Assembly: GCF_000312045.1 (NCBI RefSeq)
Contig: NZ_HE978634.1
Location: 1,420,098-1,484,097, forward strand
From: Noviherbaspirillum massiliense JC206
Lineage (GTDB): Bacteria > Pseudomonadota > Gammaproteobacteria > Burkholderiales > Burkholderiaceae_D
Reading direction: 5' to 3'
Length of the DNA stretch: 64,000 nucleotides
Shown here: one piece after another, positions 1,858-30,837 of the stretch
Layout of the letters: the number at the start of each line of letters is the position of its first letter
Numbering within the stretch: position 1 is the stretch's first letter
Made by a program: the position numbers and the translations under genes
Notes under the pieces: generated by a model
Seen by the model: the letters and a program-made list of their open reading frames with translations, nothing else
Told to the model about the DNA's origin: nothing
Databases searched by the model: none

Positions 1858-2068
1858 GGGATTGAGGCGCGTTCATGCACGGCTGCTTCTCACATGTCGG
1901 GCCTGCGTGGGCGCGTCCCGTCTCGGGTTCATTCGTGAGACAGGCATCACGTGATACTCTGATGCTTCACATGAGCGGCCAATTTCCCACTCAGGGCAGG
2001 TAAAATCGCGAATCTGGACCGACTCCCGGCCTTGCCTGCCGCCCGAAATTCCCCATAGAAACATTGAC

Positions 2069-3115
2069 ATGAGTACACTCAAAACCATACTTGTCACCGG
2101 CGCGTCCGGCTATATCGGTTCGCACACCTGCGTCGAACTGCTGGATGCAGGATACGCGGTTGTCGCGCTGGACAATCTATGCAACAGCTCGCCCGAGGCT
2201 CTGAAGCGGGTGGAAAAGATCACCGGCAAGGTCATTCCGTTTTATGAAGCGGATGTGCGCGACAGCATTGCGCTGGATGCCTTGCTGCGCACCCATCGCA
2301 TCGATGCATGCATCCATTTTGCGGGCCTGAAGGCGGTGGGTGAGTCGGTCGAGAAGCCGCTGGCCTATTTCGAAAACAATGTATCCGGCACCATCAACCT
2401 TTTGCAGGCCCTGGGCAATGCCGGCGTGAAGCGCTTCCTGTTCAGTTCGTCGGCGACTGTGTACGGGGACCCGGAATCGGTGCCGATCCGCGAGACGGCG
2501 CGGCTATCGGTCACCAACCCCTATGGGCGTTCCAAGCTGATGGTGGAGCAGATCCTGCAGGACCTGGCCAAGTCGGATCCGTCCTGGGCGATCGCCTCGC
2601 TGCGCTATTTCAATCCGGTCGGCGCGCATGCGAGCGGCCTGATCGGAGAAGACCCGCGCGGCATTCCGAACAATCTGATGCCTTTCGTGAGTCAGGTGGC
2701 GGTGGGACGCCGCGAACGTCTGTCGGTATTCGGCAATGATTATCCGACGCCGGACGGCACCGGTGTGCGCGACTATATCCATGTGGTCGATCTTGCGCAG
2801 GGCCATTTGGCGGCGCTCGATGAACTCTTCCGCTCGGGTCGCAGCTTTACGGTCAATCTCGGTACGGGCAAGGGCTACAGCGTGCTCGAGATCGTGCGTG
2901 CATTCGAAGCGGCCAGCGGCCGTTCCGTGCCATACAAGATCGTCGCACGCCGGCCCGGCGACATCGCCGTGTGCTATGCCGATCCTTCCGAGGCGAAGCG
3001 ACTGCTCGACTGGCATGCGAAAAAGGGCCTGGCTGAAATGTGCGCCGACCACTGGCGCTGGCAGAGCATGAATCCGCATGGGTTTGAAACGCCGGCGGAG
3101 GCGGTACCTGCCTGA
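2069..3115 (+). CDS. galE: UDP-glucose 4-epimerase
   Basis: A 348-residue extended short-chain dehydrogenase that interconverts UDP-glucose and UDP-galactose in the cytoplasm, supplying galactose for surface glycans. The NAD-binding GASGYIG motif is at residues 11-17, FSSSATVYG precedes the active site, and the catalytic YxxxK is Y152/K156 (NPYGRSK). The length is typical of GalE, and the N-terminal SYTGSHT-like region of GalE is recognisable as GYIGSHTCVEL. It sits about 210 bases after the GMC oxidoreductase in the same direction and is followed by a strong hairpin terminator. The UDP-GlcNAc 4-epimerase activity of some relatives cannot be excluded. Confidence 0.92.
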   Translation: MSTLKTILVTGASGYIGSHTCVELLDAGYAVVALDNLCNSSPEALKRVEKITGKVIPFYEADVRDSIALDALLRTHRIDACIHFAGLKAVGESVEKPLAYFENNVSGTINLLQALGNAGVKRFLFSSSATVYGDPESVPIRETARLSVTNPYGRSKLMVEQILQDLAKSDPSWAIASLRYFNPVGAHASGLIGEDPRGIPNNLMPFVSQVAVGRRERLSVFGNDYPTPDGTGVRDYIHVVDLAQGHLAALDELFRSGRSFTVNLGTGKGYSVLEIVRAFEAASGRSVPYKIVARRPGDIAVCYADPSEAKRLLDWHAKKGLAEMCADHWRWQSMNPHGFETPAEAVPA

Positions 3116-3147
3116 GCGTTGCCGCATCGGATAGAGAGGCATTCAAG

Positions 3148-3186
3148 AAAAAGAGGCCGGCATGTTTCCATGCCGGCCTCTTTTTT
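3148..3186. terminator. bidirectional Rho-independent terminator between galE and GH16 copy 1
   Basis: A perfect 17-bp stem (3148-3164 with 3169-3185) around a TTTC loop, with an A-run on the left and T-run on the right, so it can end both galE and the convergent GH16 gene. Confidence 0.9.
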
Positions 3187-3247
3187 CATGCTTGCGACAT
3201 TGCCGGGCACACGCCGGGCAATGTCGCATCATGCACTGGTGCGCTGC

Positions 3248-3949
3248 TTACTTGAACTGCCAGACGCGCACGTACTTGACGTCGAAGGAGTTGCTCTTGC
3301 CTTGCGGAGTGCTGTCATCCGGCTGACCGCTGGCGCTGCCGAACAGGACGTCGAGCATCACGTACATGCGACCCGGCATGGTGACGTTGGCCGAATACAC
3401 TTCCTTGCCGTCGAAGTAGAAGGTCTGCTTGTTCGGCTCCCACTTCAGCGCGTACTTGTGATAGGTGGCCGAGAGGTCGCCCAGACCCGTCACCATCTTC
3501 GTGCCGCCCAGGTCTCCCGGATTGCCGATCCAGATGGTTGGCGCATACGCGGTCGGATGGAAGTTGGCATCGGACCAGTAGCTGGCGGGGCCGCCGCCGG
3601 AGTAGGCTTCCATGATGTCGATCTCGGGGCGGAAGTTGCCTGCAGCATCGTGGTTGTACAGCCAGAATGCGGGCCAGGCGCCTTTACCAACCGGCAGCTT
3701 GGCTTCGATCTCATAGTAGCCGTAGGTCTGGTAGAACTTGCCGTCGGTATCGATCACGCGGTTGAAGAATTTGCCGCTGGCATCTTTCTGCGGCCAGATC
3801 TTGAGCGAGCCGTTTTCGACGGCGTAGTTCTTGGTCGGATTGCTCGGCTGATCCCAGGTGGTGTCGTTCCACTTCTTGGTATCGAAGCCGTTTTCGAATT
3901 CATCCGAGAAAGTCAGCACATAATCATTCGCGTTCTGACCGTAGGGGCC
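3248..3949 (-). repeat. direct repeat copy A (GH16 catalytic part)
   Basis: This 702-bp segment aligns without gaps to 10366-11067 in the same orientation. By eye it is highly similar, including many synonymous sites: the first about 35 bases from the stop codon inward are almost identical. Similarity ends abruptly at the GPYGQN codons, upstream of which the two genes' linkers are unrelated. Together the two copies bracket the predicted arabinose-donor module. Confidence 0.85.
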
Positions 3950-4294
3950 GGTTGCGGTCGTGCCTGTGGCCGGAGACGAGCCGGTGTTGGAAGACGGCGC
4001 AGAACCAGAAGGCGCAGGGGAAGTCGGCGAAGAAGTCGAATCCGGTGTCGAGCCAGACGATGAACCGGCGTTCGAGGACGAATCAGACGTCGAAGGAGAA
4101 GCCGAATCGCTGGCAGGAGTCGAGGATCCCGACGAGGTATCCGGATTCGACATGACCGATTGTGAAGCAGTTTGGGAAGCCCCATCCGTTGCCGTTGAAG
4201 TTGTGCCGCTGCCGCCGCCACCGCCACAGGCGGTCATGATGAACGCGGCGCAAGCGCACGCGATTGCCGATTGGTAAAGACGTTTATTGCTCAA
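3248..4294 (-). CDS. glycoside hydrolase family 16 lipoprotein, copy 1
   Basis: A 348-residue secreted glycan hydrolase of family GH16 (beta-glucanase/galactanase fold, retaining mechanism). A lipoprotein signal ends at MTAC (Cys23), followed by a glycine run; Gly at +2 predicts outer-membrane sorting. Residues about 30-115 are a Ser/Thr/Pro-rich, probably disordered linker. The GH16 domain follows, with EIDIME giving the catalytic pair E224/E229. The start is TTG, with GGAG eight bases upstream and no in-frame ATG nearby. It is the first of three GH16 paralogues in 9.5 kb and is nearly identical to copy 2 over the catalytic domain. A role in trimming or releasing the polysaccharide made by this region is inferred; the substrate is unknown. 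Confidence 0.88.
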   Translation of the reverse strand: MSNKRLYQSAIACACAAFIMTACGGGGGSGTTSTATDGASQTASQSVMSNPDTSSGSSTPASDSASPSTSDSSSNAGSSSGSTPDSTSSPTSPAPSGSAPSSNTGSSPATGTTATGPYGQNANDYVLTFSDEFENGFDTKKWNDTTWDQPSNPTKNYAVENGSLKIWPQKDASGKFFNRVIDTDGKFYQTYGYYEIEAKLPVGKGAWPAFWLYNHDAAGNFRPEIDIMEAYSGGGPASYWSDANFHPTAYAPTIWIGNPGDLGGTKMVTGLGDLSATYHKYALKWEPNKQTFYFDGKEVYSANVTMPGRMYVMLDVLFGSASGQPDDSTPQGKSNSFDVKYVRVWQFK

Positions 4295-4334
4295 GATGAC
4301 GCTCCCTAAATTGATTCAAATTGCAATAGTTCTT

Positions 4335-4381
4335 GCAAGCAAGAGACACGTCAGAGCTTGCGCACAGGAAATTGGTTCCTG
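4335..4381 (-). promoter_or_regulatory. conserved hairpin leader upstream of GH16 copy 1
   Basis: About 40 bases upstream of the start codon. On the mRNA strand it has a GGAACCAATTTC box, then GCAAGC/GCTTGC arms (4335-4340 and 4356-4361) enclosing TCTGACGT. The same boxes, order and distance occur before GH16 copy 2 (11341-11381). In this copy the first box is itself an inverted repeat (CAGGAA/TTCCTG). It could be an operator or an RNA element; no known riboswitch consensus was recognised. Confidence 0.6.
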
Positions 4382-4683
4382 CGTGAAACATTTACTTACT
4401 TATTCCGTGTTTAACCAATGGCGACTTTCTGATAGCCACAAGGCAAGAAATAAGGGGTTTTCGATGGCAATCGATCAACCAGGGAGGGCAAAGGAGGACG
4501 CCGGAGCGTTTGGAAATGGCAGATGCGACAACAGGCGCGCGATGCATCAGCCGCGCATGTTTATAAAGAGGAGTGCGGAGCGGCCTCGTCCTTCAGGCCA
4601 TGAATGCAAGGGCAGGGGAGAGCTGCGGGTGCCATGCACAGCGGACCGTAAGTTCCGCTATGCGTGGAATTCCGCGTTGTGAA
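4382..4683. other. non-coding stretch between GH16 copy 1 leader and the PAP2-like gene
   Basis: No convincing gene is present. On the minus strand it should hold the promoter of GH16 copy 1, though no clear -35/-10 pair stands out, and the 3' end of the PAP2-like/UbiA transcript. No strong terminator hairpin was found for the latter. Confidence 0.5.
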
Positions 4684-5100
4684 TCAGGAAAGAAAGTATC
4701 TGGCAAATGCCGCGACGCCAATCCCCACGAGGATACCGGCGGCAATCTCGATGCGGGTATGGCCCATGCGCTCGCGCAGCACGGTATGCGATACATCCTT
4801 TGCCGCGAGACGATTGATGGCGGATGCGTGGTTTCCTACTGCGCGGCGCAGGCTGTTGGCATCGAGCATGACGATGAAGGCAAGCGTGACAGCAATGCCG
4901 AAGGCAGGCTGCGCAATGCCGTTCTTCATCGCGATCAGCGCTGCAGTGCTGCTCACGATCGCGCTGTGATTGCTCGGCAGTCCGCCATAGCCGATCTGGC
5001 CAAAAGCGAGCTGACCTGCACGAATGCTGTTGATGAAGAACTTCAGCGTGCCGGCGACGAGCCATGCGAGGAAAGGGGTAAGCGCGTACGACCAATCCAC
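4684..5100 (-). CDS. divergent PAP2-family (DUF212) membrane phosphatase
   Basis: A 138-residue membrane protein of the DUF212/divergent PAP2 family. It contains the family signatures GLPSNHSA, an LDANSLRR segment and ERMGHTRIEI, with hydrophobic helices at each end. It is cotranscribed with, and three bases after, the UbiA-type phosphoribosyltransferase. In mycobacteria a PAP2-type protein (Rv3807c) next to the UbiA enzyme is the proposed phosphatase that removes the 5-phosphate from decaprenylphosphoryl-phosphoribose. By analogy this protein probably does that step, although the family here is DUF212 and the reaction is inferred from context only. Confidence 0.75.
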   Translation of the reverse strand: MDWSYALTPFLAWLVAGTLKFFINSIRAGQLAFGQIGYGGLPSNHSAIVSSTAALIAMKNGIAQPAFGIAVTLAFIVMLDANSLRRAVGNHASAINRLAAKDVSHTVLRERMGHTRIEIAAGILVGIGVAAFARYFLS

Positions 5101-5103
5101 GTG

Positions 5104-5988
5104 TTATCCCCCGACTGGCCACAGCGCCCAGATGCATGCGCCGATCCACAGTGCGACGGTGACGAGCAGCTGCCAGTCGGCCAGCAATGCATCTGTCGGC
5201 GACTCTCCGCCATCCAGCTCATCGACCACATACCAATAGCGAAACAGGCCGAAGAGAACGAGAGGGATGGTCACGACCATCTGCGGTTTCGCCGACATGA
5301 CGTACAGGCTGTAGAAGAACAATGCGCCAGTCGCTGACATGTGGGCATAGCGGTCGATGAGCGTCACCGAATATTTTCCCAGCACTTCGCGGCCCTGCGT
5401 GCCGTTTCCCGCCAATTCCTGGCGGCGCTTGACGGCAGCGAGGTAAAGCGCAAGGCACAGTGTCGTGACTGCCATCCAGCCGGACAGCGGAACCGACAAT
5501 GCCACCGCGCCCGCATACACCCGCAGCACGAAGCCGATGGCGATGGTGAAGATGTCGACCACCGGAACGTTTTTCAGCGCAAAGGTATAGACCAGGTTCA
5601 GTACGAGGTAGCCGACGATGACCGTGACGACTTTCGGAGCCGCGACCCAGCCCCAGGCAATGATCCCGTAGAGGACGGCAAGCAGTGTCATCGCCATCGG
5701 AATGGTGACGGCACCCGATGCAAGCGGGCGGGTCTTCGACTTCTTCGGATGACGCCGGTCGCGTTCGATATCGCGCATGTCGTTGACGATGTAGGTCGCG
5801 GATGAGGCGACACAGAAAAGCAGCGTGGCGAACAGTGCGGCGCTGATCCAGGAGGGCTCCAGGAATTCTCCGGTAAAAACAAGAGGCGCCAGGACGAAGC
5901 CGTTTTTCACCCATTGTTTGGGACGCATCAAGGTGACCAGACCTCGTAACTGACCCAGGAGCGTATGCTGGACTAAGGTGTTGTGCAT
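5104..5988 (-). CDS. UbiA-family decaprenyl-phosphate phosphoribosyltransferase-like protein
   Basis: A polytopic UbiA-superfamily prenyltransferase of about 294 residues. The motif NDMRDIERD (69-77), followed by HPKKSKTRPLASG, closely follows the ND-x2-D-x3-D...RP-x-A-x-G signature of mycobacterial Rv3806c, which joins 5-phosphoribosyl-pyrophosphate to decaprenyl phosphate. A second acidic/basic loop reads KRRQEL. This would be the committed step to polyprenyl-phosphoryl arabinose. The frame is open back to 6039, but that start would overlap the divergent gtrA-like gene; the ATG at 5988 avoids this and has GGAG 11 bases upstream. The 3' neighbour is the PAP2-like phosphatase. Family assignment is firm; the precise substrate is inferred from the adjacent DprE1/DprE2 homologues. 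Confidence 0.85.
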   Translation of the reverse strand: MHNTLVQHTLLGQLRGLVTLMRPKQWVKNGFVLAPLVFTGEFLEPSWISAALFATLLFCVASSATYIVNDMRDIERDRRHPKKSKTRPLASGAVTIPMAMTLLAVLYGIIAWGWVAAPKVVTVIVGYLVLNLVYTFALKNVPVVDIFTIAIGFVLRVYAGAVALSVPLSGWMAVTTLCLALYLAAVKRRQELAGNGTQGREVLGKYSVTLIDRYAHMSATGALFFYSLYVMSAKPQMVVTIPLVLFGLFRYWYVVDELDGGESPTDALLADWQLLVTVALWIGACIWALWPVGG

Positions 5989-6022
5989 ATAATTCGTTAC
6001 TCCGCCGTAACTGAAGAACTTC

Positions 6023-6430
6023 ATGAAACTTGCAATCACTTATGCCTTGCTCGCCGCGATCGCAACGATCACCAATCTCGGAAGTCAGGACCTCACACTG
6101 CATCTCTATGCGGGCGTCTATTCGGTGCAGCTTTCCGTTCTTGTCGGCACAGGCGTAGGACTTGTCGTCAAGTACATGCTCGACAAGGTTTATATCTTCC
6201 GCTTCCAGGCACGTAATGCCATTGAGGACGGCCAAACATTCGTGCTTTACACATTGACCGGAGTAATCACCACAGCAATTTTCTGGGGCTTCGAATTCTG
6301 GTTCGATGCGCTCTTTCAATCAAAGGAATGGCGCTATGTCGGCGGTGCAATCGGTCTTGCGATTGGCTATGTCGCCAAGTATCAGCTGGATAAAAAGTTC
6401 GTCTTCGGCAATCGCGTAGCAAGATGCTGA
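6023..6430 (+). CDS. GtrA-family membrane protein
   Basis: A 135-residue protein with four predicted membrane helices and the GtrA ending pattern VAKYQLDKKFVF; a matching KYMLDKVYIF occurs after helix 2. GtrA proteins are thought to move or recruit polyprenyl-phosphate-linked sugars. The closest contextual parallel is Rv3789, the GtrA protein next to dprE1 in Mycobacterium tuberculosis. The gene overlaps dprE1 by seven bases and starts only 34 bases from the divergent UbiA gene. The likely role is handling of decaprenylphosphoryl-arabinose at the inner membrane, by inference. Confidence 0.8.
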   Translation: MKLAITYALLAAIATITNLGSQDLTLHLYAGVYSVQLSVLVGTGVGLVVKYMLDKVYIFRFQARNAIEDGQTFVLYTLTGVITTAIFWGFEFWFDALFQSKEWRYVGGAIGLAIGYVAKYQLDKKFVFGNRVARC

Positions 6431-7731
6431 TCCATGGATGGGGGCGTCACCCTGTAGTTGACGCGGAAATACGGGCGCCGCTTACACCTACGTCGGCCAC
6501 GTCGGTATTGAGTGAATGCAAGGACGTGCCGCTTATTGCGCGCGGCATGGGGAGAAGCTATGGCGACAGTTCGCTTGCATCGCATGTCATCAGCACTGCC
6601 TACCTGAATCTGCTGCTGGACTTCGACAGGGAAAGCGGCATCGTCAGATGCGGCGCAGGCGTGACGCTGGCGGAACTGCTCGATGCCTTCGTGCCTCAGG
6701 GATGGTTCCTTCCAGTGACGCCGGGCACGAAGTTCGTCTCAGTCGGTGGTGCGATCGCCAGCGATGTGCATGGAAAGAATCATCATTTGGACGGCTGCTT
6801 CAGCGAGTTTGTGGAGCGTTTCAGCCTGCTCCTGGCAAGCGGCGAAATCGTCACCTGTTCCCGCAGCGAACACAGCGACCTGTTCCATGCGACTTGCGGC
6901 GGAATGGGACTGACCGGCATCATCCTGGAAGCGAGCCTACGGCTGAAGCCGATCAGGAGCGCAATGATCGATCAGACGACTTTCAAGGCGCAAAACCTCG
7001 CAGAAGCGATCGAATTGTTCGAGAAACATCACGACGCCGAATATTCGGTGGCGTGGATCGATTGCCTGGCGACAGGGAATGCGCTCGGCCGTTCCCTCGT
7101 CATGCTGGGCAGGCACTCCGGGAGTGGCAACTTGTCTGCGCGCAGCAAGCGCCCCATGTCGGTGCCGGTCGACATGCCCGCGCCCTTGCTGAACCGCTTT
7201 TCCATCGGTGCCTTCAACGCGCTGTATTTCCATCGCATCAGGCGCTCGCCGCTCGCGCAGCAGGTGCATTACGAGCCATATTTCTACCCGCTGGATGGCA
7301 TCCATCACTGGAACCGCATGTACGGCAAGCGCGGATTCACGCAATACCAGTTTGCATTGCCAAAGGCTGCCGGCATGGAGGGCATGGCGACCATTTTGAA
7401 AAGAATTGCGGCTTCCGGACGCGGATCGTTCTTGGCCGTGCTCAAGGCCTTCGGAAAGGAAAATGCTAACCTGCTCTCCTTTCCCATCGAAGGGTATACG
7501 CTCGCGCTCGATTTCAAGCTGGAAGAGGCATTGTTTCCGCTGCTTGAAGAACTCGATGCGATAGTGCTTGACCACGGCGGACGGCTGTATCTGACCAAGG
7601 ATGTTCGCATGAGCGAGGCGACTTTCAAGCGCAGTTATCCGCGCTGGGAGGCATTCCAGGAAACGCGGATACGCTATGGCGCGCAGGGGAGATTCGCTTC
7701 GCGCCAGTCACAACGATTGGGGATGGATTAG
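6424..7731 (+). CDS. dprE1: DprE1-like FAD-dependent decaprenylphosphoryl-ribose 2-oxidase
   Basis: A 435-residue FAD-linked oxidase with an N-terminal FAD-binding domain containing RGMGRSYGDSS, as in mycobacterial DprE1, and a C-terminal D-arabinono-lactone-oxidase-like domain. DprE1 oxidises the 2-hydroxyl of decaprenylphosphoryl-ribose as the first half of epimerisation to arabinose. The C-terminal region aligns readily by eye: GGRLYLTKD matches the catalytic-lysine segment (K392, equivalent to K418). GYTLALDF matches GWNICVDF, so Ala361 sits where mycobacteria have the benzothiazinone-reactive Cys387. The gene overlaps gtrA and abuts dprE2 directly (stop codon immediately followed by ATG). 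Assignment is strong from the motif set plus partner genes. Confidence 0.9.
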   Translation: MLIHGWGRHPVVDAEIRAPLTPTSATSVLSECKDVPLIARGMGRSYGDSSLASHVISTAYLNLLLDFDRESGIVRCGAGVTLAELLDAFVPQGWFLPVTPGTKFVSVGGAIASDVHGKNHHLDGCFSEFVERFSLLLASGEIVTCSRSEHSDLFHATCGGMGLTGIILEASLRLKPIRSAMIDQTTFKAQNLAEAIELFEKHHDAEYSVAWIDCLATGNALGRSLVMLGRHSGSGNLSARSKRPMSVPVDMPAPLLNRFSIGAFNALYFHRIRRSPLAQQVHYEPYFYPLDGIHHWNRMYGKRGFTQYQFALPKAAGMEGMATILKRIAASGRGSFLAVLKAFGKENANLLSFPIEGYTLALDFKLEEALFPLLEELDAIVLDHGGRLYLTKDVRMSEATFKRSYPRWEAFQETRIRYGAQGRFASRQSQRLGMD

Positions 7732-8469
7732 ATGGAAAGAATATTGATCGTCGGCGCCACGTCGGCCATCGCCGAGGCGACCGCACGGCGCTTTGCGCAG
7801 CAGGGAGCGAAACTCTACCTGCTCGCGCGCAACCGCGAGCGGATGGAAGGCCTCGCGCGTGACCTCAGGATACGCGGCGCTTCCCAGGTGTCATTCGCCG
7901 TCTTCGACGCGAACGACTTCGATTCGCACCAAGCGCTGCTGCAGCGTGCCATCGACGACATGGGCGGGCTCGACCTGGTATTGATTGCGCACGGCACTCT
8001 GGGAGACCAGAAGGCATGCGAGAAAAGCTTCCCGCTGACGCTGCGGGAACTCAATACCAATGCCATCAGCGTGATCTCGCTGCTTACCCACCTGGCGAAT
8101 GATCTCGAGGCGCAAAGGCACGGGACGATTGCAGTGATCAGCTCGGTCGCGGGTGACCGGGGACGGCAATCGAATTACGTCTACGGTACGGCCAAGGGCG
8201 CAGTTTCGATTTTCCTGCAGGGCTTGCGCAACCGCTTGCACAAGAAGGGCGTGCACGTGCTCACGATCAAGCCCGGTTTCGTCGATACGCCAATGACTGC
8301 GGCATTCCGCAAGGGCCCGCTGTGGGCCAGTGCCGACAGGATCGCGGAAGGCATTGTGCGCTCGGTGCAGAGAAAGAGGGACGAGGTTTACCTGCCGGGC
8401 TGGTGGGCAGCGATCATGATGGTCATCAGGAACATACCGGAACGGATTTTCAGGACGCTGTCGCTGTAG
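7732..8469 (+). CDS. dprE2: DprE2-like SDR decaprenylphosphoryl-2-keto-ribose reductase
   Basis: A 245-residue short-chain dehydrogenase. The N-terminal GATSAIAEA nucleotide motif starts at residue 8, the active site shows ISSVAGDRG followed by Y151-x3-K155, and KPGFVDTPM follows, as in DprE2. It would use NADH to reduce the 2-keto intermediate made by DprE1, giving polyprenylphosphoryl-arabinose. Its ATG follows the dprE1 stop codon without a gap, implying translational coupling. SDR assignment is certain; DprE2 identity rests on the neighbour and overall resemblance. Confidence 0.88.
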   Translation: MERILIVGATSAIAEATARRFAQQGAKLYLLARNRERMEGLARDLRIRGASQVSFAVFDANDFDSHQALLQRAIDDMGGLDLVLIAHGTLGDQKACEKSFPLTLRELNTNAISVISLLTHLANDLEAQRHGTIAVISSVAGDRGRQSNYVYGTAKGAVSIFLQGLRNRLHKKGVHVLTIKPGFVDTPMTAAFRKGPLWASADRIAEGIVRSVQRKRDEVYLPGWWAAIMMVIRNIPERIFRTLSL

Positions 8470-8542
8470 GCTGGCGGGCAGGGCAAGGCTGCAGGCCGCG
8501 TCAGAAGTCGTCGTTAAAACTATTCAAAGGGATGGAACCGTA

Positions 8543-10252
8543 ATGCTGCGTGGCTTGAAATACATTGCGATCACCTACTTCCTGGCGGCCTTCGCATTCA
8601 CGATCTACGCGGTCGGCCATTATCCGACGGTACATCTGGCGGACCTGGTGTTCGACGATGCCTACTATTACCTTGGCGTCGCCTGGAATATCGCCCAGGG
8701 CCATGGCTCCACCTTCGGCAACCTGGTGCAGACCAATGGCTATCAGCCGCTCTGGCTGCTGATCCTCGCCGCGGTGCTCGCCGTTTTCTCGCTGTCCAAG
8801 GTCTGGGCGCTCGCCGTCGTTCCGCTGCTGACGCTTCTGATCAAGATCGTCGCAGTGGCGCGCATCGATGTGCGGAAGAGCGCGGAAGGTGCGGCGTTCT
8901 TCATCGCCCTGGTCGCCATCCTGCTGCTTTGCCAGAACACCTTCATGCACGGCCTGGAGACGATCCTGCTGCTGCTGTTCCTGCCCTTGATCAGCCAGCT
9001 CAAGCCGTATCCCGAGCAATTTTCCCCCGCAACCTGCGTCAAGTACGCCGCCATCTTCCTGGTCCTGTTTCTTGCGCGGCTCGATGCGCTGGCACTGGCG
9101 GGCGCATTCGCCCTGCTCGTTGTCATCAGCAGACGCAAGCATGTGGTTTCCAATCTTGCATTGACGCTTGGATTGACCCTGGCGGGTGTGCTGGTCTATT
9201 TCGCGGTCAACTACACGCTGTTAGGAACGATCGTGCCGGTAAGCGGGCAGGCGAAAGCAATCGGAAACAGGGTAGGGGAGAACCTGCCGGTTTTACTGAA
9301 CTATCTGCTTGCGGGCCGGATCGCGATTGCCGCCATCATTCTTGTTTTCATCCTGAAAGCCGGCGTCAGGAAAAATGCAATTGGTCCGCTTCCGTTTTCC
9401 GGTGAATTGAAACTCATTGCTTTGGGAACGGTGGCGATTGCCAGCTACTACGCCTTGTTTTCCGGCTGGCCGGTCTGGGGCTGGTATTACTGGCCGGTGG
9501 CGCTGGTGACGCTCTATGCGCTGACCCAGGTCGGCTATCTGAGCATGGTGCTGTACAAGCAATCCATGAGCAGCTGGACGTCGAAGCTGCTGTCAGTGGT
9601 GGGCTGGGGCTTCATCGGCTATGTTCTCCTGCTTGGCGTCAGGACGGAAATGGCGCATGACGCCAATCCGTTCTACAGCATGTTGAAGAAAACAAGCGAT
9701 CAGAGTTTCAACGCGATGAATGTCAGGCTGATTGACGACTTCTTTTCGAAGATGCCTGATGGTGTGGTCGCGATGGGAGACCGAGCCGGCGGGCTGGGGT
9801 ACTGGCTGCCGGAGCGTTTCAAATTCTTCCATACCGAAGGCCTGGTTGCGAACAAGGAATACATCGATGCGCGTAAGGCGGGAACCGGCCTGCAATTCCT
9901 GAAAGGGATGGGAATCAAATACTTTGTGGTCGAGCGCGAGAGATTGCTCGAGGCAAGGGATAAAGACGGCACCGTGGTGCACGGGATTGTCGAGCCGGTG
10001 CAGGGATTGTCGGTGCATTCCGGGCAGCTCCTGATCTGCCTCCCGGAGAGTTCGATCCTGTACAGCCAGGATTACGGACAGCAGATCCGCCGCGTGTACG
10101 ACTTCACCAAGCTTGTGGAATGTCCGAACGAGATTCGCAACGAAGCCGACCGCCTGTCGCAGGCTTACGGCGAGCTCAGGAAATACAGCCTTCCCTCGGA
10201 ATACGGCGAAAACTGGACGCTGATGAAATACATCAAGTCGAATCCTTTCTGA
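8543..10252 (+). CDS. GT-C fold membrane glycosyltransferase, candidate arabinofuranosyltransferase
   Basis: A 569-residue integral membrane protein with about ten hydrophobic segments in the first 370 residues and a soluble C-terminal part. The first periplasmic loop carries FDDAYYY (Asp38/Asp39), then NIAQGHGSTF and TNGYQPLW. This arrangement is typical of GT-C enzymes that use polyprenyl-phosphate sugars, including mycobacterial AftB-type arabinosyltransferases. It lies 73 bases after dprE2 and before a terminator, so it is the likely user of the decaprenylphosphoryl-arabinose made by this module. The acceptor (exopolysaccharide, lipopolysaccharide, pilin or other) cannot be told from the sequence. 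Confidence 0.75.
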   Translation: MLRGLKYIAITYFLAAFAFTIYAVGHYPTVHLADLVFDDAYYYLGVAWNIAQGHGSTFGNLVQTNGYQPLWLLILAAVLAVFSLSKVWALAVVPLLTLLIKIVAVARIDVRKSAEGAAFFIALVAILLLCQNTFMHGLETILLLLFLPLISQLKPYPEQFSPATCVKYAAIFLVLFLARLDALALAGAFALLVVISRRKHVVSNLALTLGLTLAGVLVYFAVNYTLLGTIVPVSGQAKAIGNRVGENLPVLLNYLLAGRIAIAAIILVFILKAGVRKNAIGPLPFSGELKLIALGTVAIASYYALFSGWPVWGWYYWPVALVTLYALTQVGYLSMVLYKQSMSSWTSKLLSVVGWGFIGYVLLLGVRTEMAHDANPFYSMLKKTSDQSFNAMNVRLIDDFFSKMPDGVVAMGDRAGGLGYWLPERFKFFHTEGLVANKEYIDARKAGTGLQFLKGMGIKYFVVERERLLEARDKDGTVVHGIVEPVQGLSVHSGQLLICLPESSILYSQDYGQQIRRVYDFTKLVECPNEIRNEADRLSQAYGELRKYSLPSEYGENWTLMKYIKSNPF

Positions 10253-10365: not shown

Positions 10366-11067
10366 TTACTTGAACTGCCAGACGCGCACGTACTTGACGT
10401 CATAGGAGTTGTCCTTGCCTTGCGGAGTGCTGTCATCCGGCTGGCCGCTGGCGCTGCCGAACAGGATGTCGAGCATCACGTACATGCGTCGCGGCATGGA
10501 AACGTTGGCCGAATACACTTCCTGGCCGTCGAAGTAGAAGGTCTGCTTGTTCGGCTCCCACTTCACTGCATACTTGTGATAGCCGGCCGAGAGGTCGCCC
10601 AGGCCCGTCACCATCTTCGTGCCGCCCGACTCGCCCGGATTGCCGATCCAGATGGTCGGGGCATAAGCGGTCGGATGGAAGTTCGCATCGGACCAGCCGC
10701 TGTCGGGGCCGCCACCGGAATAGGCTTCCATGATGTCGATCTCGGGGCGGTAGTTACCTGCCTCATCGTGGTTGTACAGCCAGAACGCGGGCCACGCGCC
10801 TTTGCCCACCGGCAGCTTGGCTTCGACCTCGAAGTAGCCATAGGTCTGGTAGAACTTGCCGTCGGTATCGATCACGCGGTTGAAGAATTTGCCGCTGGCA
10901 TCTTTCTGCGGCCAGATCTTAAGCGAACCGTTTTCGACAGCGTAGTTCTTGGTCGGATTGCTCGCCTGGTCCCAGGTAGCGTCGTTCCACTTGTTGGTAT
11001 CGAAGCCGTTTTCGAATTCGTCCGAGAAGGTGAGGACATAGTCATTCGCATTCTGACCATAGGGGCC
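10366..11067 (-). repeat. direct repeat copy B (GH16 catalytic part)
   Basis: The partner of 3248-3949: same length, same orientation, no gaps, with substitutions scattered throughout. The centre-to-centre distance is about 7.1 kb, enclosing the arabinose-donor genes. Confidence 0.85.
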
Positions 11068-11301
11068 TACGGCTTCTGTTTCTGCTGCCGATCCAGTACC
11101 AGCAGCAGGAGTAGAAGTCGGAGAGGTGGCGTTTGAACCTGCTCCAACGATTTCAGATTGCGAAGTACCAGGATAGTTGGTCTCAGCAGCTACTGCATTA
11201 GTACCGCCGCCGCCGCCGCCGCACGCAGCGAGGATCATTGCGGTACAGGCACCAGCCAGCGAGGTTGTTAAAAACTTTTTTCGGATAGTGGAAGTAACCA
11301 A
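10366..11301 (-). CDS. glycoside hydrolase family 16 lipoprotein, copy 2
   Basis: A 311-residue GH16 lipoprotein. The signal ends at LAAC with a glycine run after the cysteine, then a linker shorter than in copy 1, then the GH16 domain with EIDIME (catalytic E187/E192). The domain matches copy 1 almost residue for residue up to the shared ending VKYVRVWQFK. The start is TTG, with an AGGA Shine-Dalgarno eight bases upstream. The upstream leader is conserved with copy 1, so both are probably controlled together. The likely location is the outer membrane or cell surface, acting on a beta-linked polysaccharide; the specific linkage is unknown. Confidence 0.88.
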   Translation of the reverse strand: MVTSTIRKKFLTTSLAGACTAMILAACGGGGGGTNAVAAETNYPGTSQSEIVGAGSNATSPTSTPAAGTGSAAETEAVGPYGQNANDYVLTFSDEFENGFDTNKWNDATWDQASNPTKNYAVENGSLKIWPQKDASGKFFNRVIDTDGKFYQTYGYFEVEAKLPVGKGAWPAFWLYNHDEAGNYRPEIDIMEAYSGGGPDSGWSDANFHPTAYAPTIWIGNPGESGGTKMVTGLGDLSAGYHKYAVKWEPNKQTFYFDGQEVYSANVSMPRRMYVMLDILFGSASGQPDDSTPQGKDNSYDVKYVRVWQFK

Positions 11302-13947: not shown

Positions 13948-14478
13948 TGATCTGTATAAGTCCGGCGGTGCTGTTCAAGATGGTTTCGATAGTTCCCTCC
14001 CTGAAGTGCAGGCATCGGACGCCTTGTGTTTTTATGTCCAATTTGCCCGCCTGTTTCAATGCAATATGTTTTGTGCGGCGGGTCTTGCTAATGAAACCAT
14101 GTTGCCTTGACTCGTCTGTTGAGAAAACTCAGCGCCGATATTTCTAGTACAGGGATTGTCGAGATAAGCGCTTGCATTGGCCCTTGATGGCGAGGCACCA
14201 ATGAAGGGAAGCAGATGGTCCTTGTACCTGCCGCTTCCTGCCGAAGTCAACAAGGACGGCATTGTGTATTCGCAAAACAGCCCCACACCGGTTTAACTAC
14301 ACTGTCAGCCCGGGTTGCCCGGTTTTCGATTTGCATGCAGTCAATAGTAGTTGTGCGCCTGTTTGCCAGGCTACTCGCTTGACTGCTGGAATTCGATAGA
14401 TGGATCCGATGCCTTCCGTACCACCGACTGTCATTTGCCGCATCGCGCACCGCTTCAATCAGTAAGTGAGACCAGCTA
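13948..14478. other. divergent intergenic region between the FemAB-like gene and GT4
   Basis: This 531-bp stretch contains no open frame with coding character. It must contain promoters for both flanking genes, but no convincing -35/-10 pair was found. A small CCGGG-TTG-CCCGG hairpin followed by TTTT (about 14309-14325) could be a weak terminator or attenuator on the plus strand. Confidence 0.4.
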
Positions 14479-24794: not shown

Positions 24795-26228
24795 TTACCC
24801 CATCTGGAACTGGTGCTGGCTTTGCGGATAGGGCGCGAGCTTCGGCTTTGGACTGGCAATCAGTGCCAGCCGGAAGAGAAGGAGATGCGCCACGAATTCG
24901 CCCGTGAAGATGGTGGTCATGTCGAAAGGCGTTTCGGTAAATGAACGGACAAGGAGAATCGAAAACATCGCCAGCGACAGTCCGCCAGTTGCGCGGTTGG
25001 CGGCCGCGGCATGGCGCCATAGCATCACGAGATAGACCACCAGGCCGACAAACCCGACCGTGCCGGCTTCCGACAATGCCTGCAGGTACTGGCTGTGGGC
25101 GCTGACCGCCGCATCGTTGCCGATGGCACGCCTGAATTCCGTTCCCCAGACCGAGGAGCCATATCCGAACAGTGGGTTGTTCTTCCAGACTTCGAGAGCG
25201 ATTTCCCAGATCTCGGTGCGCCCGGTCAGGGTCGTAAGCTGGCGTTCCTGGTCGATCTGCGCGAAATGCTGGTCGTAGCCGCTGAAGATGGCGATGGCGG
25301 CGACCACGGACAGTCCGGCAAGGCAAACAAACATCGGTGCGGCGAAGTCGCGCAGGGAATAGTAGGCACGCCTGCGACTTCGTCCACCGGTGGGTGCCTG
25401 GATGTACCTGTACCACCATAGCAGTCCGAATGCCACCAGGGCCGCTACCCATGCGGTCTTGGATTGCGCCAGCAGCAAGGTACCGATCCCCATTGCGTAC
25501 GATGCAAGCTGCAGCCAGCGCCGACGGAAAGGGTTGCAGATGATGAGCAGCAGAAACACAATCGCGAGCGGACCCGTGCTGTTGGGGTGCACGCCCAGAC
25601 CCCAGAACCTGATGTCCAGTCCCGGGAAATAGCCCGCATAATCCCGCTGTACCGAAACGCTGGGAAGGACTACCGCTGTCAGGCAACTTGCCGCAATGAA
25701 GAAGAGCAGGCCGCGCTTGGTTGCTTCCACTGAAAAATACGCGTACTGGTTGCGGCTGAAGTAGACAGCGGCAAACAGGAACATGGACGGCAGGAACCGT
25801 TCGTAAAACTCGGGATGGGTGCCGAAGATATTGTTGAGGATGACATTGCTGATGTAATACGCCAGGAACGCGAGGAACAGGCCGCGACCGTGCCTCGGCC
25901 GGTGCTCGTACCTTTGGGATACCGAAATGAAGCGCGCGAGGCAGATGCCGAAAATGAAGCCGGTAGTGAGCCGAAAGAACCAGGTAAGGAGCTGGGTATC
26001 GAACTGTGTTGCCACTGACTCGAAGTCGGCATTGCTGACGTTCCTGTTGGATAGAATCGGCCCGAGGCTGATCGCAAAGATGATGATCGGATAGACGAGA
26101 GCAAGCAGCCATTTGCGGGAATGGCGCTGCAGGCTGATGAACCATCCGATTCCCACCATGCAGCCCAGTCCGAGGACGGCAGCTCCGCCAAGGGATGCCA
26201 GCATCTGAAAAATTTCACCGCTGTTCAT
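24795..26228 (-). CDS. O-antigen polymerase/ligase-like membrane protein (Wzy candidate)
   Basis: A 477-residue polytopic membrane protein with about eleven hydrophobic segments and the O-antigen ligase/polymerase (Wzy_C) region. The region TGRTEIWEIALEVWKNNPLFGYG is followed by AHSQYLQALSEAGTVG, which contain the characteristic Arg and His residues of the large periplasmic loop. It probably polymerises repeat units in the periplasm. It lies 12 bases after the flippase gene and is coupled to the GT2 that follows. A ligase role cannot be excluded by sequence alone. Confidence 0.85.
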   Translation of the reverse strand: MNSGEIFQMLASLGGAAVLGLGCMVGIGWFISLQRHSRKWLLALVYPIIIFAISLGPILSNRNVSNADFESVATQFDTQLLTWFFRLTTGFIFGICLARFISVSQRYEHRPRHGRGLFLAFLAYYISNVILNNIFGTHPEFYERFLPSMFLFAAVYFSRNQYAYFSVEATKRGLLFFIAASCLTAVVLPSVSVQRDYAGYFPGLDIRFWGLGVHPNSTGPLAIVFLLLIICNPFRRRWLQLASYAMGIGTLLLAQSKTAWVAALVAFGLLWWYRYIQAPTGGRSRRRAYYSLRDFAAPMFVCLAGLSVVAAIAIFSGYDQHFAQIDQERQLTTLTGRTEIWEIALEVWKNNPLFGYGSSVWGTEFRRAIGNDAAVSAHSQYLQALSEAGTVGFVGLVVYLVMLWRHAAAANRATGGLSLAMFSILLVRSFTETPFDMTTIFTGEFVAHLLLFRLALIASPKPKLAPYPQSQHQFQMG

Positions 26229-26240
26229 TCGAGATCCTTC

Positions 26241-27755
26241 TCAGCTGACTCGGTAAAGAAATTTTTGCAGCCACACGTCGGTAGGAGAAGGCAGGCGCAT
26301 GGCGATCTTTTCGAAAAGCTCGGCGACATGCCGGTTGACGAGGCTCGGGAACATCCAGAGCGACAAGGCCATGCCGACCACGCCGGCTAGGACGTCGGCC
26401 AGCAGCCAGATGCCGGGAATGCCGGATAGTTCACGCGCCATGAAATCGACCAGCATGATGCCGCAGGAAGTGATCAGCGTCGTGATGATGCCGCCGGACA
26501 TAGCCCGGTACAGCCTGCGCAGGCTGATGTCGAGCGCCCTGGAAGTGGCGGTCAATACTGCGATCGCGCGGGCCAGGTACATGGCAAACACCATCCACGC
26601 AACGGCTTCGAGCGAGAAGAAGGATGCGAAGGCCCCGGCAATGACAAAGCCGATGGCGACCGGAATCTGGATCCTGAATTCCTTGCTGGTCTGGCCGGAA
26701 ACCCACAAAAGCGGCGTTGCCATTCCAAACAGGATGTAGACCGGCATGGCCAGGGAAACCGGGCGCAACAGTGCGGTAGCGCCGAGCCAGGCTTCGCCGT
26801 AAAGGGTTTGAAGTATGGTTTCCGCAGCGACGGCAATACCGGCAAAGACCGGGAACAGCAGCAGCGTCACCACGCCCATCATGGTCAGAAACGCCCGGCG
26901 CAGACGTTCGCGGTCATCCTGAACCCGTGCGCTTGCAGAAAACAGGGCGGACTGGATGACGGTGATGACGGTCCCGGCCGGACTCGACACCAGGTTGTAG
27001 GACAGGGAATACAAGCCCACCTCGGCGGCGGGGAAGGCGCGGCCGATGATGATCCGGTCGGCATTGCCGAGGAACCAGTTGACGGCGTTGGTCAGGAAGA
27101 CGCGCGAGCCGTACACGATGAGATGGTTGTCGCCGCGCTGCCAAAGTACGAAGCCGATCGGATGCCGGGACTTCCAGTACAGGAGCGCCAGGGTGGTCAA
27201 TTCGCTGCCGATGAATGCTGCGATCAGGGCCCATACCTGCTGGCCGGCCACGGCCAGCGGAATGCCGACGAATATGTAGCCGACGATATAACCCAGGACC
27301 GACGCCGCCTGTATCGACTTGAAGTCGAGCTCGCGCTTGAGCAGGTTGTGCGATGGCGAGGCGATGGCATTGATGAAGCAGATGGCGGAGGCAACCTGGA
27401 TCACCGGCATGACCCGGGGCTGATTGAAGAAATTCGACAGGGGGCCGGCAAGCAGATAGACGACGGTGCCCACCGTCAGCCCCAGGAGGACCTGCCAGGT
27501 GAATACGAACTTGATGTCGTTGTCGCTGATCGTCTTCTTCTGGATCAGGCCGTAGGAAATGCCGATGTCCGAAAAGAACTTGCTGAAAGTCAGCACGATC
27601 ATTGCGATGGCGAAAATGCCATACTCTTCCGGCCCGAGCAGCCGGGCAAGAACGATTTGTGTTGCGATCTGAAGCAGGGCTCGCAGAATCGAGCCGAAGC
27701 CGCCCCAGAATACGGCGGAAATTCCCTTGCTTGATATGTTCGCTTTGTTGTCCAT
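26241..27755 (-). CDS. Wzx-type polysaccharide flippase (MOP superfamily)
   Basis: A 504-residue membrane protein with about fourteen predicted helices, of the MOP superfamily polysaccharide-export branch. The N terminus has GGFGSILRALLQIATQIVLARLLGPEEYGIF, the hallmark of these transporters. It should flip the completed undecaprenyl-linked repeat unit to the periplasm for the adjacent Wzy. It is followed 12 bases later by the polymerase gene in the same operon. Confidence 0.92.
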   Translation of the reverse strand: MDNKANISSKGISAVFWGGFGSILRALLQIATQIVLARLLGPEEYGIFAIAMIVLTFSKFFSDIGISYGLIQKKTISDNDIKFVFTWQVLLGLTVGTVVYLLAGPLSNFFNQPRVMPVIQVASAICFINAIASPSHNLLKRELDFKSIQAASVLGYIVGYIFVGIPLAVAGQQVWALIAAFIGSELTTLALLYWKSRHPIGFVLWQRGDNHLIVYGSRVFLTNAVNWFLGNADRIIIGRAFPAAEVGLYSLSYNLVSSPAGTVITVIQSALFSASARVQDDRERLRRAFLTMMGVVTLLLFPVFAGIAVAAETILQTLYGEAWLGATALLRPVSLAMPVYILFGMATPLLWVSGQTSKEFRIQIPVAIGFVIAGAFASFFSLEAVAWMVFAMYLARAIAVLTATSRALDISLRRLYRAMSGGIITTLITSCGIMLVDFMARELSGIPGIWLLADVLAGVVGMALSLWMFPSLVNRHVAELFEKIAMRLPSPTDVWLQKFLYRVS

Positions 27756-27890
27756 GCGGAGACAGCTCTAAGAGGACGGCATCACGGCAGGCATTGCCAT
27801 CCGGGTGAATCATTGGCCGGATGAAGCGCCGTCACAGTTTGCCGATGGGGCACCGGCCTTGGGTTCATGCAGTCGGGCGCTTCATGCCTT

Positions 27891-28859
27891 TCAGGTTGGC
27901 GCCTGCTCGTGGAGGAATTGCTTGTATGTTTCTGCGATTCCTTCTTCGAGAGCAACGCCAGGTTTCCAGCCCAGGGACAGCAGCTTGGAAGTATCCATCA
28001 GCTTGCGTGGCGTCCCATCTGGCTTGGTGGTATCGAACTCGATTTGCCCCTGGTAACCGACGACATTGCAAATGATTTCTGCAACCTCTCGTATTGTGAT
28101 GTCTTCGCCAGTACCTACATTGATATGAGATAACATCGGCGTGGTGCAGGCAGCATATGCATCATGTTCCAGCTCCATGACATGCACGCACGCTTCCGCC
28201 ATGTCATCGACGTACAGGAATTCCCGGCGCGGTGTGCCGGTTCCCCAGATCACCACCTTGTCCTTGCCCTGCATCTTTGCTTCATGGAAGCGACGGATCA
28301 GCGCGGGAATCACATGACTGTTTTCCGGGTGATAGTTGTCGCCCGGCCCATACAGGTTGGTCGGCATGACGCTGCGGTAATCGGTGCCGTACTGGCGGTT
28401 GTAGCTCTCGCACATCTTGATGCCTGCAATCTTGGCAATCGCGTACGGTTCATTGGTCGGCTCGAGCAGGCCGGTCAGCAGGCTTTCCTCTTTCATTGGC
28501 TGGGTCGCCAGCCTGGGATAGATGCAGGATGAGCCGAGGAACAGCAGGCGCTTGACGCCGGCACGCCAGGCTTCATGGATCACATTGCTCTGGACCATCA
28601 GGTTGTCGTAGATGAATTCTGCCGGATAGGTATTGTTGGCGTGGATGCCGCCTACACGCGCTGCGGCAAGATAGACTTCATCGACCTGCTCGGATTCGAA
28701 GAAGGCGCGCACCTGCGCCTGGTCGGTCAGATCCATCTCCGCATGGGTACGGGTGACGATGTTGCCGTAGTCCCGCCTGCGCAAGGCACGCACGATGGCG
28801 GAACCGACCAGGCCCCGATGGCCCGCAACATAGATGCGCTTGTTCAAATCGTTTTTCAT
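27891..28859 (-). CDS. fcl: GDP-L-fucose synthase
   Basis: A 322-residue extended SDR that performs the epimerase/reductase steps from GDP-4-keto-6-deoxymannose to GDP-L-fucose. The nucleotide motif is GHRGLVGSA, the region [11 protein letters not shown] precedes the active site, and the catalytic motif is YAIAK. The [16 protein letters not shown] and [19 protein letters not shown] segments are signatures of the family. It implies that the polysaccharide contains fucose or a related deoxysugar. The partner GDP-mannose dehydratase (gmd) is not in this window. Confidence 0.93.
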
Positions 28860-29006
28860 ATGCTGCCTCTATTTCTTGAATTTGGTTCGCGGCTGTCGTG
28901 CCTCCGAGTGTAGCCTTGACGCCGCGTCTGGTTTGACTTGCCGGAAGAACCAGGCATTCCTTTCCATCCTTGCGCTGCAAGGAATGTGCAACATCCTTTC
29001 ATATGC

Positions 29007-29441
29007 TCATGTGCCGGGCTTGCTGCTGCCGGGTTTGCGCGATGCTCGCATACGCAAGGAATACCAGGAGGAAAGCAAGCCCACGCTGGCAATGGCGCCA
29101 AGCATGTTGAATTTCCAGTCATGGAAATTCGCATGGCGATAGGGAAGCATGCTTTGGATTCCTTCGTCGAGCGCACCCAGAGCCGCAATCGCACCGATGC
29201 TGCACAATGCCCGCATGCGCTGGCTGCCGCTAATGCCGAAAAAAAGCAGGACGCTCAGCAATCCGTAGGCGACGGTGTGTAGTACCTTGTCATACACCAT
29301 GGCCGAGAGGGCATCTGCGTTGCCCGGAATCGATCCGATGGCCACCATCGAAATGAACATGACCAGTACAGCCAGCAGGCAACGTTTCGGAGTCGCCCAT
29401 GCCGCGTCCGTCCGCTTGCGGCCTCGCAGTTCAGTAGGCAT
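29007..29441 (-). CDS. VanZ-like family membrane protein
   Basis: A 144-residue membrane protein with four hydrophobic segments and VanZ-like features: DKVLHTVAYGLLS in the middle and ALDEGIQSMLPYR followed by HDWKFNMLGA near the end. VanZ-like proteins are often found in exopolysaccharide operons, but their role there is unknown. Its start overlaps the end of the phosphoglycosyltransferase gene by 11 bases, so both are translated from one message. Confidence 0.82.
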   Translation of the reverse strand: MPTELRGRKRTDAAWATPKRCLLAVLVMFISMVAIGSIPGNADALSAMVYDKVLHTVAYGLLSVLLFFGISGSQRMRALCSIGAIAALGALDEGIQSMLPYRHANFHDWKFNMLGAIASVGLLSSWYSLRMRASRKPGSSKPGT

Positions 29442-30837
29442 TCGTACCGGTCCATCCCTTGAAGGCGGTCCAGAGGATGATTCTCACATCCATCCATAAG
29501 GACCAGTGCTGGATGTAATGCAGATCGAACTGCACCCGCTTGGCCATCTTGTCCACCGTGTCGGTTTCGCCGCGGTAGCCATGGATCTGTGCCCAGCCGG
29601 TGATGCCCGGCTTCACGCGGTGCCGCACCATGTACATTTCCAGCAAATCCTTGTACATCTCGTTGTGTTGCAAGGCATGCGGCCGCGGCCCAACCACGGA
29701 CATGTCGCCGAGCAGCACGTTGATGAATTGCGGCAGTTCGTCCAGACTGGTGCGGCGCAGGAAGGCGCCGATCGGCGTGACCCTCGGGTCATCCTTGGTG
29801 GCCTGCGTAACCACGCCGTGTTCCTGGTGCATCTTCATCGACCGGAACTTGTAGACATTGAATTTCCTTCCGTTCAGGCCAAGTCTCGGCTGCTTGAAGA
29901 ACACCGGGCCCGGGGAGGATTGCTTGATCAGGATCGCGATCACGATGAACAGCGGCAGCAGCAGCACCAGCGCGACGCTTGCGAACACCTTGTCGAAGAT
30001 ATCCTTGACGATGCCGTTCACGCCACCCGACATCGGCTGGTTCAGGTCCACCGCGGGCAAGCCGAGGAAATCGCCTACCTTGTTGCTCAGCATCTGCAAG
30101 CCGAGGATGTCGGGTATCCAGCGGATGTCGACCAGGGCATTGCGCAGCAGGTACTGCAGCTCCTGCATCTTCGGCGATGCCACCAGCGGCAGGGTAATCC
30201 AGATTTCATGGATATGATTCTCGACCACGTAGTCATGGATCTTTTCCAGCGTGTCGATCCGGTCAATCGCGGGATTGGTGATCTTTGCCGCGTCCGCCGG
30301 ATCGGCATGCACGGCCCGCACGTCGTAGCCGGCCCAGTCCATCTGCAATGCACGGCGATGCATTTCCTGGCCGGTGTTGCCGTAGCCGACGATGACCACG
30401 CGCTTGTGGTTGAAGCCCTTCTTGCGCAGAAAGCGCAGCACGAAATAGACCGCTGCCCTGAGCAACATCAGGAATGCCACGCCGCTTGCATACCAGTAGA
30501 ACAGCCACAGGCGGGAAAGCGTTCCGACATGGTGGATCAGGAAGCTGAACAGCAGGCCGACCATCAGGACCACACCCCAGGAAGCGCACAGGCGCAGGAA
30601 CATCTCCGGGATCGGCTTGGCCCGCCATGAGGTATAGACCTCGAGCGGGGGAAACAGGAAAAATGCAAGTGCACTGCAGAAATGAAGAAGGATGGTGTGG
30701 ACGGGAGGCGCTTCGCTCAGGGGGACATGGAAATGCACCAGGCAAGCAAGGGCGCCGGATATTTCAAGTGCGAGCACGTCCATGAGGCGCATGGACAGTT
30801 CGAGCCGGGATGCGTTGTTGTTGATCAGATCTCGCAT
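29431..30837 (-). CDS. undecaprenyl-phosphate sugar-1-phosphate transferase (WcaJ/PssY type)
   Basis: A 468-residue initiating enzyme. The N-terminal part has four to five membrane helices plus a CoA-binding-like domain (VVIVGYGNTGQEM). The C-terminal bacterial sugar-transferase domain contains FKQPRLGLNGRKFNVYKFRSM, the RRTSLDELPQFINVL motif and VGPRPHAL, ending GWTGTNAY. It loads the first sugar phosphate, usually glucose-1-phosphate, onto undecaprenyl phosphate. It is the first gene of the minus-strand polysaccharide series, downstream of a 540-base intergenic region that probably contains the operon promoter. Confidence 0.92.
   Translation of the reverse strand: MRDLINNNASRLELSMRLMDVLALEISGALACLVHFHVPLSEAPPVHTILLHFCSALAFFLFPPLEVYTSWRAKPIPEMFLRLCASWGVVLMVGLLFSFLIHHVGTLSRLWLFYWYASGVAFLMLLRAAVYFVLRFLRKKGFNHKRVVIVGYGNTGQEMHRRALQMDWAGYDVRAVHADPADAAKITNPAIDRIDTLEKIHDYVVENHIHEIWITLPLVASPKMQELQYLLRNALVDIRWIPDILGLQMLSNKVGDFLGLPAVDLNQPMSGGVNGIVKDIFDKVFASVALVLLLPLFIVIAILIKQSSPGPVFFKQPRLGLNGRKFNVYKFRSMKMHQEHGVVTQATKDDPRVTPIGAFLRRTSLDELPQFINVLLGDMSVVGPRPHALQHNEMYKDLLEMYMVRHRVKPGITGWAQIHGYRGETDTVDKMAKRVQFDLHYIQHWSLWMDVRIILWTAFKGWTGTNAY

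Follow-up and report, generated by a model that had tools for sequence, protein, structure and literature searches.

The 64-kb window analysed here, by which we mean the whole stretch of DNA from Noviherbaspirillum massiliense JC206 (contig NZ_HE978634.1, positions 1,420,098 to 1,484,097), carries six contiguous genes at 4684..10252. We are fairly confident that they form an acquired D-arabinofuranose (D-Araf) decoration module that acts on the exopolysaccharide of the surrounding Wzx/Wzy locus. The likely product would be D-arabinofuranosyl groups decorating this exopolysaccharide in a lineage-specific manner, with a predicted acceptor and linkage. All six open reading frames (ORFs) were confirmed, and their types agree with those named in the preliminary description. 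They are arranged in two divergent units rather than in a single operon. The minus strand encodes a 138 aa membrane protein of the DUF212 (divergent PAP2) family (4684..5100), proposed as a polyprenyl-phosphoribose 5'-phosphatase, and an Rv3806c-like polyprenyl-phosphate phosphoribosyltransferase of the UbiA family (5104..5988). The plus strand encodes a GtrA-family candidate flippase with an Rv3789-like role (6023..6430), a DprE1-like FAD oxidase (6424..7731), a DprE2-like short-chain dehydrogenase/reductase (SDR; 7732..8469) and a GT-C-like polytopic membrane protein of 569 aa (8543..10252). Profile comparisons suggest that the last of these is a distantly AftB-like arabinofuranosyltransferase.

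In the proposed route, with UbiA acting as a PRPP:polyprenyl-phosphate phosphoribosyltransferase, DUF212 would remove the 5'-phosphate, DprE1 would oxidise and DprE2 reduce C2, converting lipid-linked ribofuranose into D-arabinofuranose, and GtrA may help the lipid-sugar to cross the inner membrane. Transfer of D-Araf onto the Wzx/Wzy exopolysaccharide would then take place in the periplasm, carried out by the AftB-like GT-C. The identity of the donor lipid is presumptive, and the specificity and acceptor of the transferase are predicted.

The homology of UbiA, DprE1 and DprE2 to solved mycobacterial enzymes is well supported by sequence comparison. The only type of PDB match for UbiA was decaprenyl-phosphate phosphoribosyltransferase (8j8j, E=5e-35); the NCBIfam model of this enzyme, NF008977, scored 223.3 bits and the general UbiA family model 72 bits. 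Residues N86, D87, D90 and D94 of the NDxxDxxxD motif, together with R205 and E208, are invariant in 7/7 aligned rows. The ORF list opens this gene at a GTG (6039); the ATG at 5988 is the more likely start, because the ORFs of 4/6 relatives begin there and a Met is found in 7/7 rows. DprE1 matched mycobacterial DprE1 in the PDB at 4e-75, with other oxidases far behind (1e-10), and is 38.6% identical to the Mycobacterium tuberculosis (Mtb) enzyme across 427 aligned residues. DprE2 matched the DprE2 chain of the DprE1/DprE2 complex (21gq_C, 6e-35). The two genes are adjacent and intact, and their products align over almost their full length with the mycobacterial pair. The motifs listed in the preliminary description were all recovered, namely NDMRDIERD with TRPLASG in UbiA, GRSYGDS in DprE1 and YGTAK in DprE2.

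Two sets of observations weigh against a strict assignment to a D-Araf donor pathway. All three enzymes score below their NCBIfam equivalog cut-offs: UbiA against NF008977 (cut-off 234), DprE1 with 405 bits against NF053785 (cut-off 500) and DprE2 with 208.5 bits against NF053786 (cut-off 250). The top NCBIfam match of DprE2 is the general SDR model NF005489 (340.8 bits, cut-off 267). The missed DprE1 cut-off counts for less, though, as that of NF053785 was passed by 0/294 genomes of the same GTDB family. Moreover, DprE1 differs at five of the 17 positions that we take to be its active-site residues in Mtb numbering (S228V, Y314F, F320I, N385T and C387A). The other twelve are kept, including Y60, H132, K134, W230, R325, Q334, Y415 and K418. 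Of the preliminary description, a polyprenyl-phosphoryl-D-arabinofuranose-type module is upheld, with donor synthesis, a pair of enzymes for C2 epimerisation, a GtrA-type flippase candidate and a distantly AftB-like transferase.

Residue 361 of DprE1 is an alanine that aligns with Mtb C387, presumably the cysteine attacked by benzothiazinones in mycobacteria; Mtb N385 aligns with a threonine. A DprE1 without the benzothiazinone-target cysteine offers enzymologists a useful natural comparison.

The same genome contains a second locus (L164:9270-13723, in G000:C1:2568500-2588000) that encodes a further UbiA-DUF212 pair together with an AftB-like GT-C of its own. Its DprE2-like gene is broken by an in-frame stop, it holds no DprE1 or GtrA, and its neighbours are glycosyltransferase-like ORFs, named by eye. 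Either this is an older module in decay, or the transferase of L164 uses the donor made by the window's module. In another genome of the family, a UbiA-DUF212 pair (L170:6370-7738) was found in a fetched stretch of 15 kb that holds neither DprE1 nor DprE2, an arrangement that would predict a ribofuranose donor. The preliminary description had also considered D-ribofuranose, formed if epimerisation is bypassed, as the product. For the module in the window this is unlikely, as its DprE1 and DprE2 are both intact; it could fit the L164 pair. More broadly, we consider it very improbable that the module makes D-ribofuranose or another pentofuranose, with its DprE pair inactive or acting on another substrate. 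Such a product would be in keeping with the five altered DprE1 positions, with the L164 pair beside a broken DprE2 and with the donor promiscuity reported for a related GT-C (PMC11127046). The intact, adjacent DprE1 and DprE2 and the 12/17 retained DprE1 positions argue for D-arabinofuranose instead.

The preliminary description drew attention to the pathway lying outside the Actinobacteria; any novelty on that account has to be given up. A search with NF053785 matched 290/294 genomes of the GTDB family at E<=0.001, and the scores split cleanly. A real DprE1 is present in 47/294: 46 score at least 304 bits, the window included, one is a 180-bit fragment, and the next match scores 92. Within the genus, DprE1 occurs in 2/15 genomes (G000 and G007), and DUF212 in the identical two. 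In a species-level genome collection, at least 585 stretches match DprE1 patterns, and 581 of the matches listed encode a relative. The 80 loci kept from these come from Pseudomonadota, Bacteroidota, Campylobacterota, Thermodesulfobacteriota, Chlorobiota and others; no actinobacterium is named among their 80 record titles. Gram-negative systems are also in print. The module is a variant of a known D-arabinofuranose-type decoration, and the pathway outside Actinobacteria is not new.

The phosphatase step is where the module differs in a more instructive way. The DUF212 protein is probably a displaced polyprenyl-phosphoribose 5'-phosphatase, to judge by its motifs and gene context. It scores 108 bits with PF02681 (gathering score 26.5), and the motifs PSxHS and LRExxGHxxxE are kept in 7/7 aligned module proteins. 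The catalytic meaning of these PAP2-like motifs comes from PAP2 enzymes. The phosphatase candidate of the preliminary description thus matches the divergent PAP2 family. A canonical identity was rejected, since PF02681 was matched and PF01569, the family to which we take Rv3807c to belong, was not.

To place this protein in context, we compared 128 loci, comprising the window, 46 stretches around family DprE1 matches (from 45 genomes, as G253 gave two; the G272 fragment was left out), the 80 named loci and L163. Domains were detected on six-frame open stretches of at least 40 aa; the DUF212 of L089 had been missed on called ORFs. DprE2 was found near DprE1 in 124/128 loci, UbiA in 109/128 and GtrA in 37/128. 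At the 109 UbiA-bearing loci, a HAD phosphatase-like domain is present in 79 (fused to UbiA in 43, separate in 36), DUF212 in 15, neither in 15 and both in none. The HAD label was Pfam-checked on L054, L100 and L163 only, the last of which fell below the gathering score. In all 15 DUF212-bearing module loci, DUF212 adjoins UbiA on the same strand. It is because DUF212 and HAD never co-occur beside UbiA that we propose DUF212 as the phosphatase; with kinship ignored, the mutual exclusion gives a Fisher p of 1.5e-10. The locus L100 (an uncultured Methylococcaceae record, 1167-6574) illustrates the exchange: it encodes UbiA, GtrA, DprE1, DprE2, a homologous GT-C and HAD in this order and in one direction, with the HAD phosphatase standing in for DUF212. 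In 7 of the 15 loci with neither phosphatase, DprE1 is centred within 2.4 kb of the locus end. Among the rest of these 15, a Bacteroidetes DprE module (L123) carries a canonical PAP2 gene at 14291-14854, ~3 kb downstream of DprE1. As neither HAD nor DUF212 was seen at that locus, this is possibly a third phosphatase type.

The UbiA tree, built from 108 loci and one Mtb row (the short UbiA of L050 was left out), places the DUF212 rows in one supported set (99) of 20 rows, 15 with DUF212 and five with no phosphatase seen. The label DUF212 versus HAD changes once on the UbiA tree and eight times on the DprE1 tree, a comparison that omits rows without UbiA or without a seen phosphatase. When DUF212 is set against all other rows, the changes number 4 and 10, respectively. 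Both trees are quick searches without bootstrap. The 1 versus 8 label changes indicate that UbiA is exchanged together with its phosphatase, as one unit, relative to DprE1. In the tree of DUF212 proteins, the 17 UbiA-linked rows split from 18 stand-alone rows with support of 100/99; the branches of several module rows in this tree are very long, and the L089 sequence is short.

Several findings speak against assigning the phosphatase step to DUF212. On the UbiA tree, the mutual exclusion with HAD amounts essentially to a single switch; the Fisher value therefore overstates it, and the counts weigh less. DUF212 is also common as a stand-alone gene: 109/294 family genomes match at E<=0.001, and 18/20 DUF212 loci chosen outside modules hold no UbiA in the fetched stretch, the other two being the UbiA-DUF212 pairs of L164 and L170. 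Finally, five UbiAs of the DUF212 clade lack a linked phosphatase, and any DUF212 was found in 0/5 of their genomes. These last two points would fit an alternative in which an unlinked enzyme removes the 5'-phosphate and DUF212 aids lipid transport or recycling. We regard it as a possible but doubtful explanation in view of the retained PAP2-like motifs, the adjacency to UbiA in 15/15 loci, the complementarity with HAD and the separate clade (100/99). The literature consulted did not tie DUF212 to the phosphatase step, and the family is not named in the main text of PMC11127046.

Taken together, we lean slightly towards a wider reading. Here, the distinct DUF212 clade would be the dedicated polyprenyl-phosphoribose 5'-phosphatase of pentofuranose systems. 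It would take the place of HAD, whether fused to UbiA or free, and form with UbiA a donor-charging cassette that is swapped as a whole. Together with an AftB-type transferase, the cassette would allow a bacterium to add D-arabinofuranose to an exopolysaccharide that relatives assemble with shared genes, which would amount to a lineage-level coat switch. The locus offers a concrete function that can be tested for some members of DUF212, a widespread and uncharacterised family, and suggests that unrelated proteins have filled the phosphatase step.

The flippase candidate GtrA matched NF037976 with 173.5 bits (cut-off 50) and PF04138 with 30 bits. A protein search of its own genome at E<=0.001 found no match besides GtrA itself.

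The GT-C protein had no NCBIfam match, no Pfam match at E<=1 and no single-sequence PDB match. Its own genome aside, it was matched in 0/59 relatives and in 1/368 further genomes of the class. Its two clearest homologues, at L100 and L163, both lie within DprE modules, and an iterated profile over the polytopic proteins of the fetched loci links it to the GT-Cs of other modules. When a 12-row profile (A6) was compared with the PDB, AftB was the only convincing match (E=1.9e-22). We attribute this match to intermediates, because A6 includes rows that resemble AftB by themselves; taken singly, the Pseudomonas indica GT-C (L084), for example, matches AftB at 3.7e-12. A profile of the window, L100 and L163 proteins (A4) was also aligned with a disjoint profile of five other GT-Cs (A8), giving an hhalign probability of 98.9% over the N-terminal 215 columns; the UbiA control gave 0.1%. 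AftB residues D62, E172, R221 and K278 align with D39, E139, R179 and K238 of the window protein, and AftB T274 aligns with S234, all invariant in A4. Donor-site roles have been described for AftB D62, E172, R221, T274 and R372 (PMC12041299), and T91 counts among the donor-site residues as well.

The AftB assignment has its own counter-evidence. The three-sequence profile A4 alone finds no AftB in the PDB, its top rows being ephrin receptor chains (0.02). R372 of AftB lies outside the aligned stretch. Two AlphaFold2 models of the GT-C were poor, with predicted local distance difference test (pLDDT) values of 34 and 45, and Foldseek with the second model gave no match at E<=0.001. The top four Foldseek rows were GT-C proteins (PimE and AftA), and assignment by structure was dropped, these rows not being used as evidence. 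On sequence comparison, the protein would thus join the AftB (Rv3805c) superfamily distantly and through intermediates only. We take the AftB family to be GT89.

The surroundings of the module point to the acceptor. Two minus-strand GH16 endoglycanase genes (PF00722) bracket it, at 3248..4294 on the left and 10366..11301 on the right, and are 91.9% identical at the nucleotide level across 702 bp, in the same orientation. Further along, the minus strand (24795..30837) encodes a Wzy_C protein (PF04932), a Wzx-type flippase (PF13440), an epimerase (PF01370), an ORF for which we take the name VanZ-like, and an initiating sugar transferase (PF02397). Wza and Wzc are encoded upstream of the window. 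The window also holds a GMC oxidoreductase, a GalE-like epimerase, three GH16 genes in all, a GNAT/FemAB-like protein, GT4 and GT2 glycosyltransferases, a polysaccharide deacetylase, a GDSL lipase, an acyltransferase and a WecG-type transferase. By eye, its right half (31376-64000) appears to contain ordinary housekeeping genes.

In 4/4 same-genus relatives examined, out of 14 (G002, G004, G009 and G013), no module protein was matched at E<=1e-15 in the fetched locus. The gene order of the exopolysaccharide locus is kept in these four over the part fetched, which only in G002 extends from Wza to the initiating transferase. Each of their loci has an array of 3 to 5 GH16 genes, in the orientation opposite to that in the window. 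The window's GH16 genes and FemAB are reversed relative to their neighbours; FemAB was seen in 2/4 relatives. The simplest reading of this comparison is that the module was acquired by insertion into a conserved exopolysaccharide locus, along with an inversion at the site. It provides a natural comparison between an exopolysaccharide locus with the module and four without it.

On this reading, which argues from position, the exopolysaccharide is the most economical acceptor. The preliminary description had left the acceptor as a surface glycan or protein. The glycan fits better on the grounds of position, no search for pilins having been made. The same donor pathway might serve a type IV pilin or the O-antigen of lipopolysaccharide (LPS) instead, in line with the published D-Araf system that modifies pilins in Pseudomonas paraeruginosa (PMC12369383), with the other pentofuranose systems that modify LPS (PMC11127046) and with the second UbiA-DUF212 pair and AftB-like GT-C at L164. 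We think this unlikely given the position of the module inside an exopolysaccharide locus and between GH16 genes; inspection of the window ORFs by eye showed no pilin, although no search aimed at pilins was made. An acquired module that is decaying or silent and has no function is likewise very improbable. Its absence from the locus of the four relatives, the 92% identical GH16 stretches around it and the decay of the related L164 locus in the same genome would suit that explanation, but all six reading frames are open, with third-position GC values of 0.59-0.79.

When comparing the module with the mycobacterial pathway (Rv3789-Rv3791 and Rv3805c-Rv3807c), the shared components are homologues of UbiA, DprE1 and DprE2, a GtrA-type protein and a distantly AftB-like GT-C. 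Unlike in mycobacteria, DUF212 is the proposed phosphatase here, the six genes lie together in an exopolysaccharide locus, and the position of DprE1 C387 is occupied by alanine.

Among Gram-negative bacteria, D-Araf biosynthetic genes are likewise present in P. paraeruginosa (PSPA7_6245-6251 with TfpW), where the transferase gene accompanies that of the pilin (PMC12369383). Kelly et al. 2024 noted DprE1/E2 homologues in their candidate systems for glycans that contain Araf (PMC11127046). The three-component systems of Citrobacter youngae O1/O2 (GT136) similarly combine a UbiA-type PPPRS, a phosphatase, a flippase candidate and a GT-C, and share with the module the model of periplasmic side-chain addition (PMC11127046). 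However, the C. youngae UbiA is fused with a HAD phosphatase, and the flippase there is described as MATE-family (PMC11127046), whereas the module has DUF212 as predicted phosphatase, GtrA as candidate flippase and an AftB-like GT-C as proposed transferase. In Azorhizobium, the Mycobacterium-like noeCHOP genes have been proposed to provide a D-arabinose precursor, and there the acceptor is a Nod factor (PMC2443382). The comparisons with these three Gram-negative systems are by description only. The most interesting features that remain to the module are the hypothesis of a DUF212 phosphatase and its apparent insertion in an exopolysaccharide locus.

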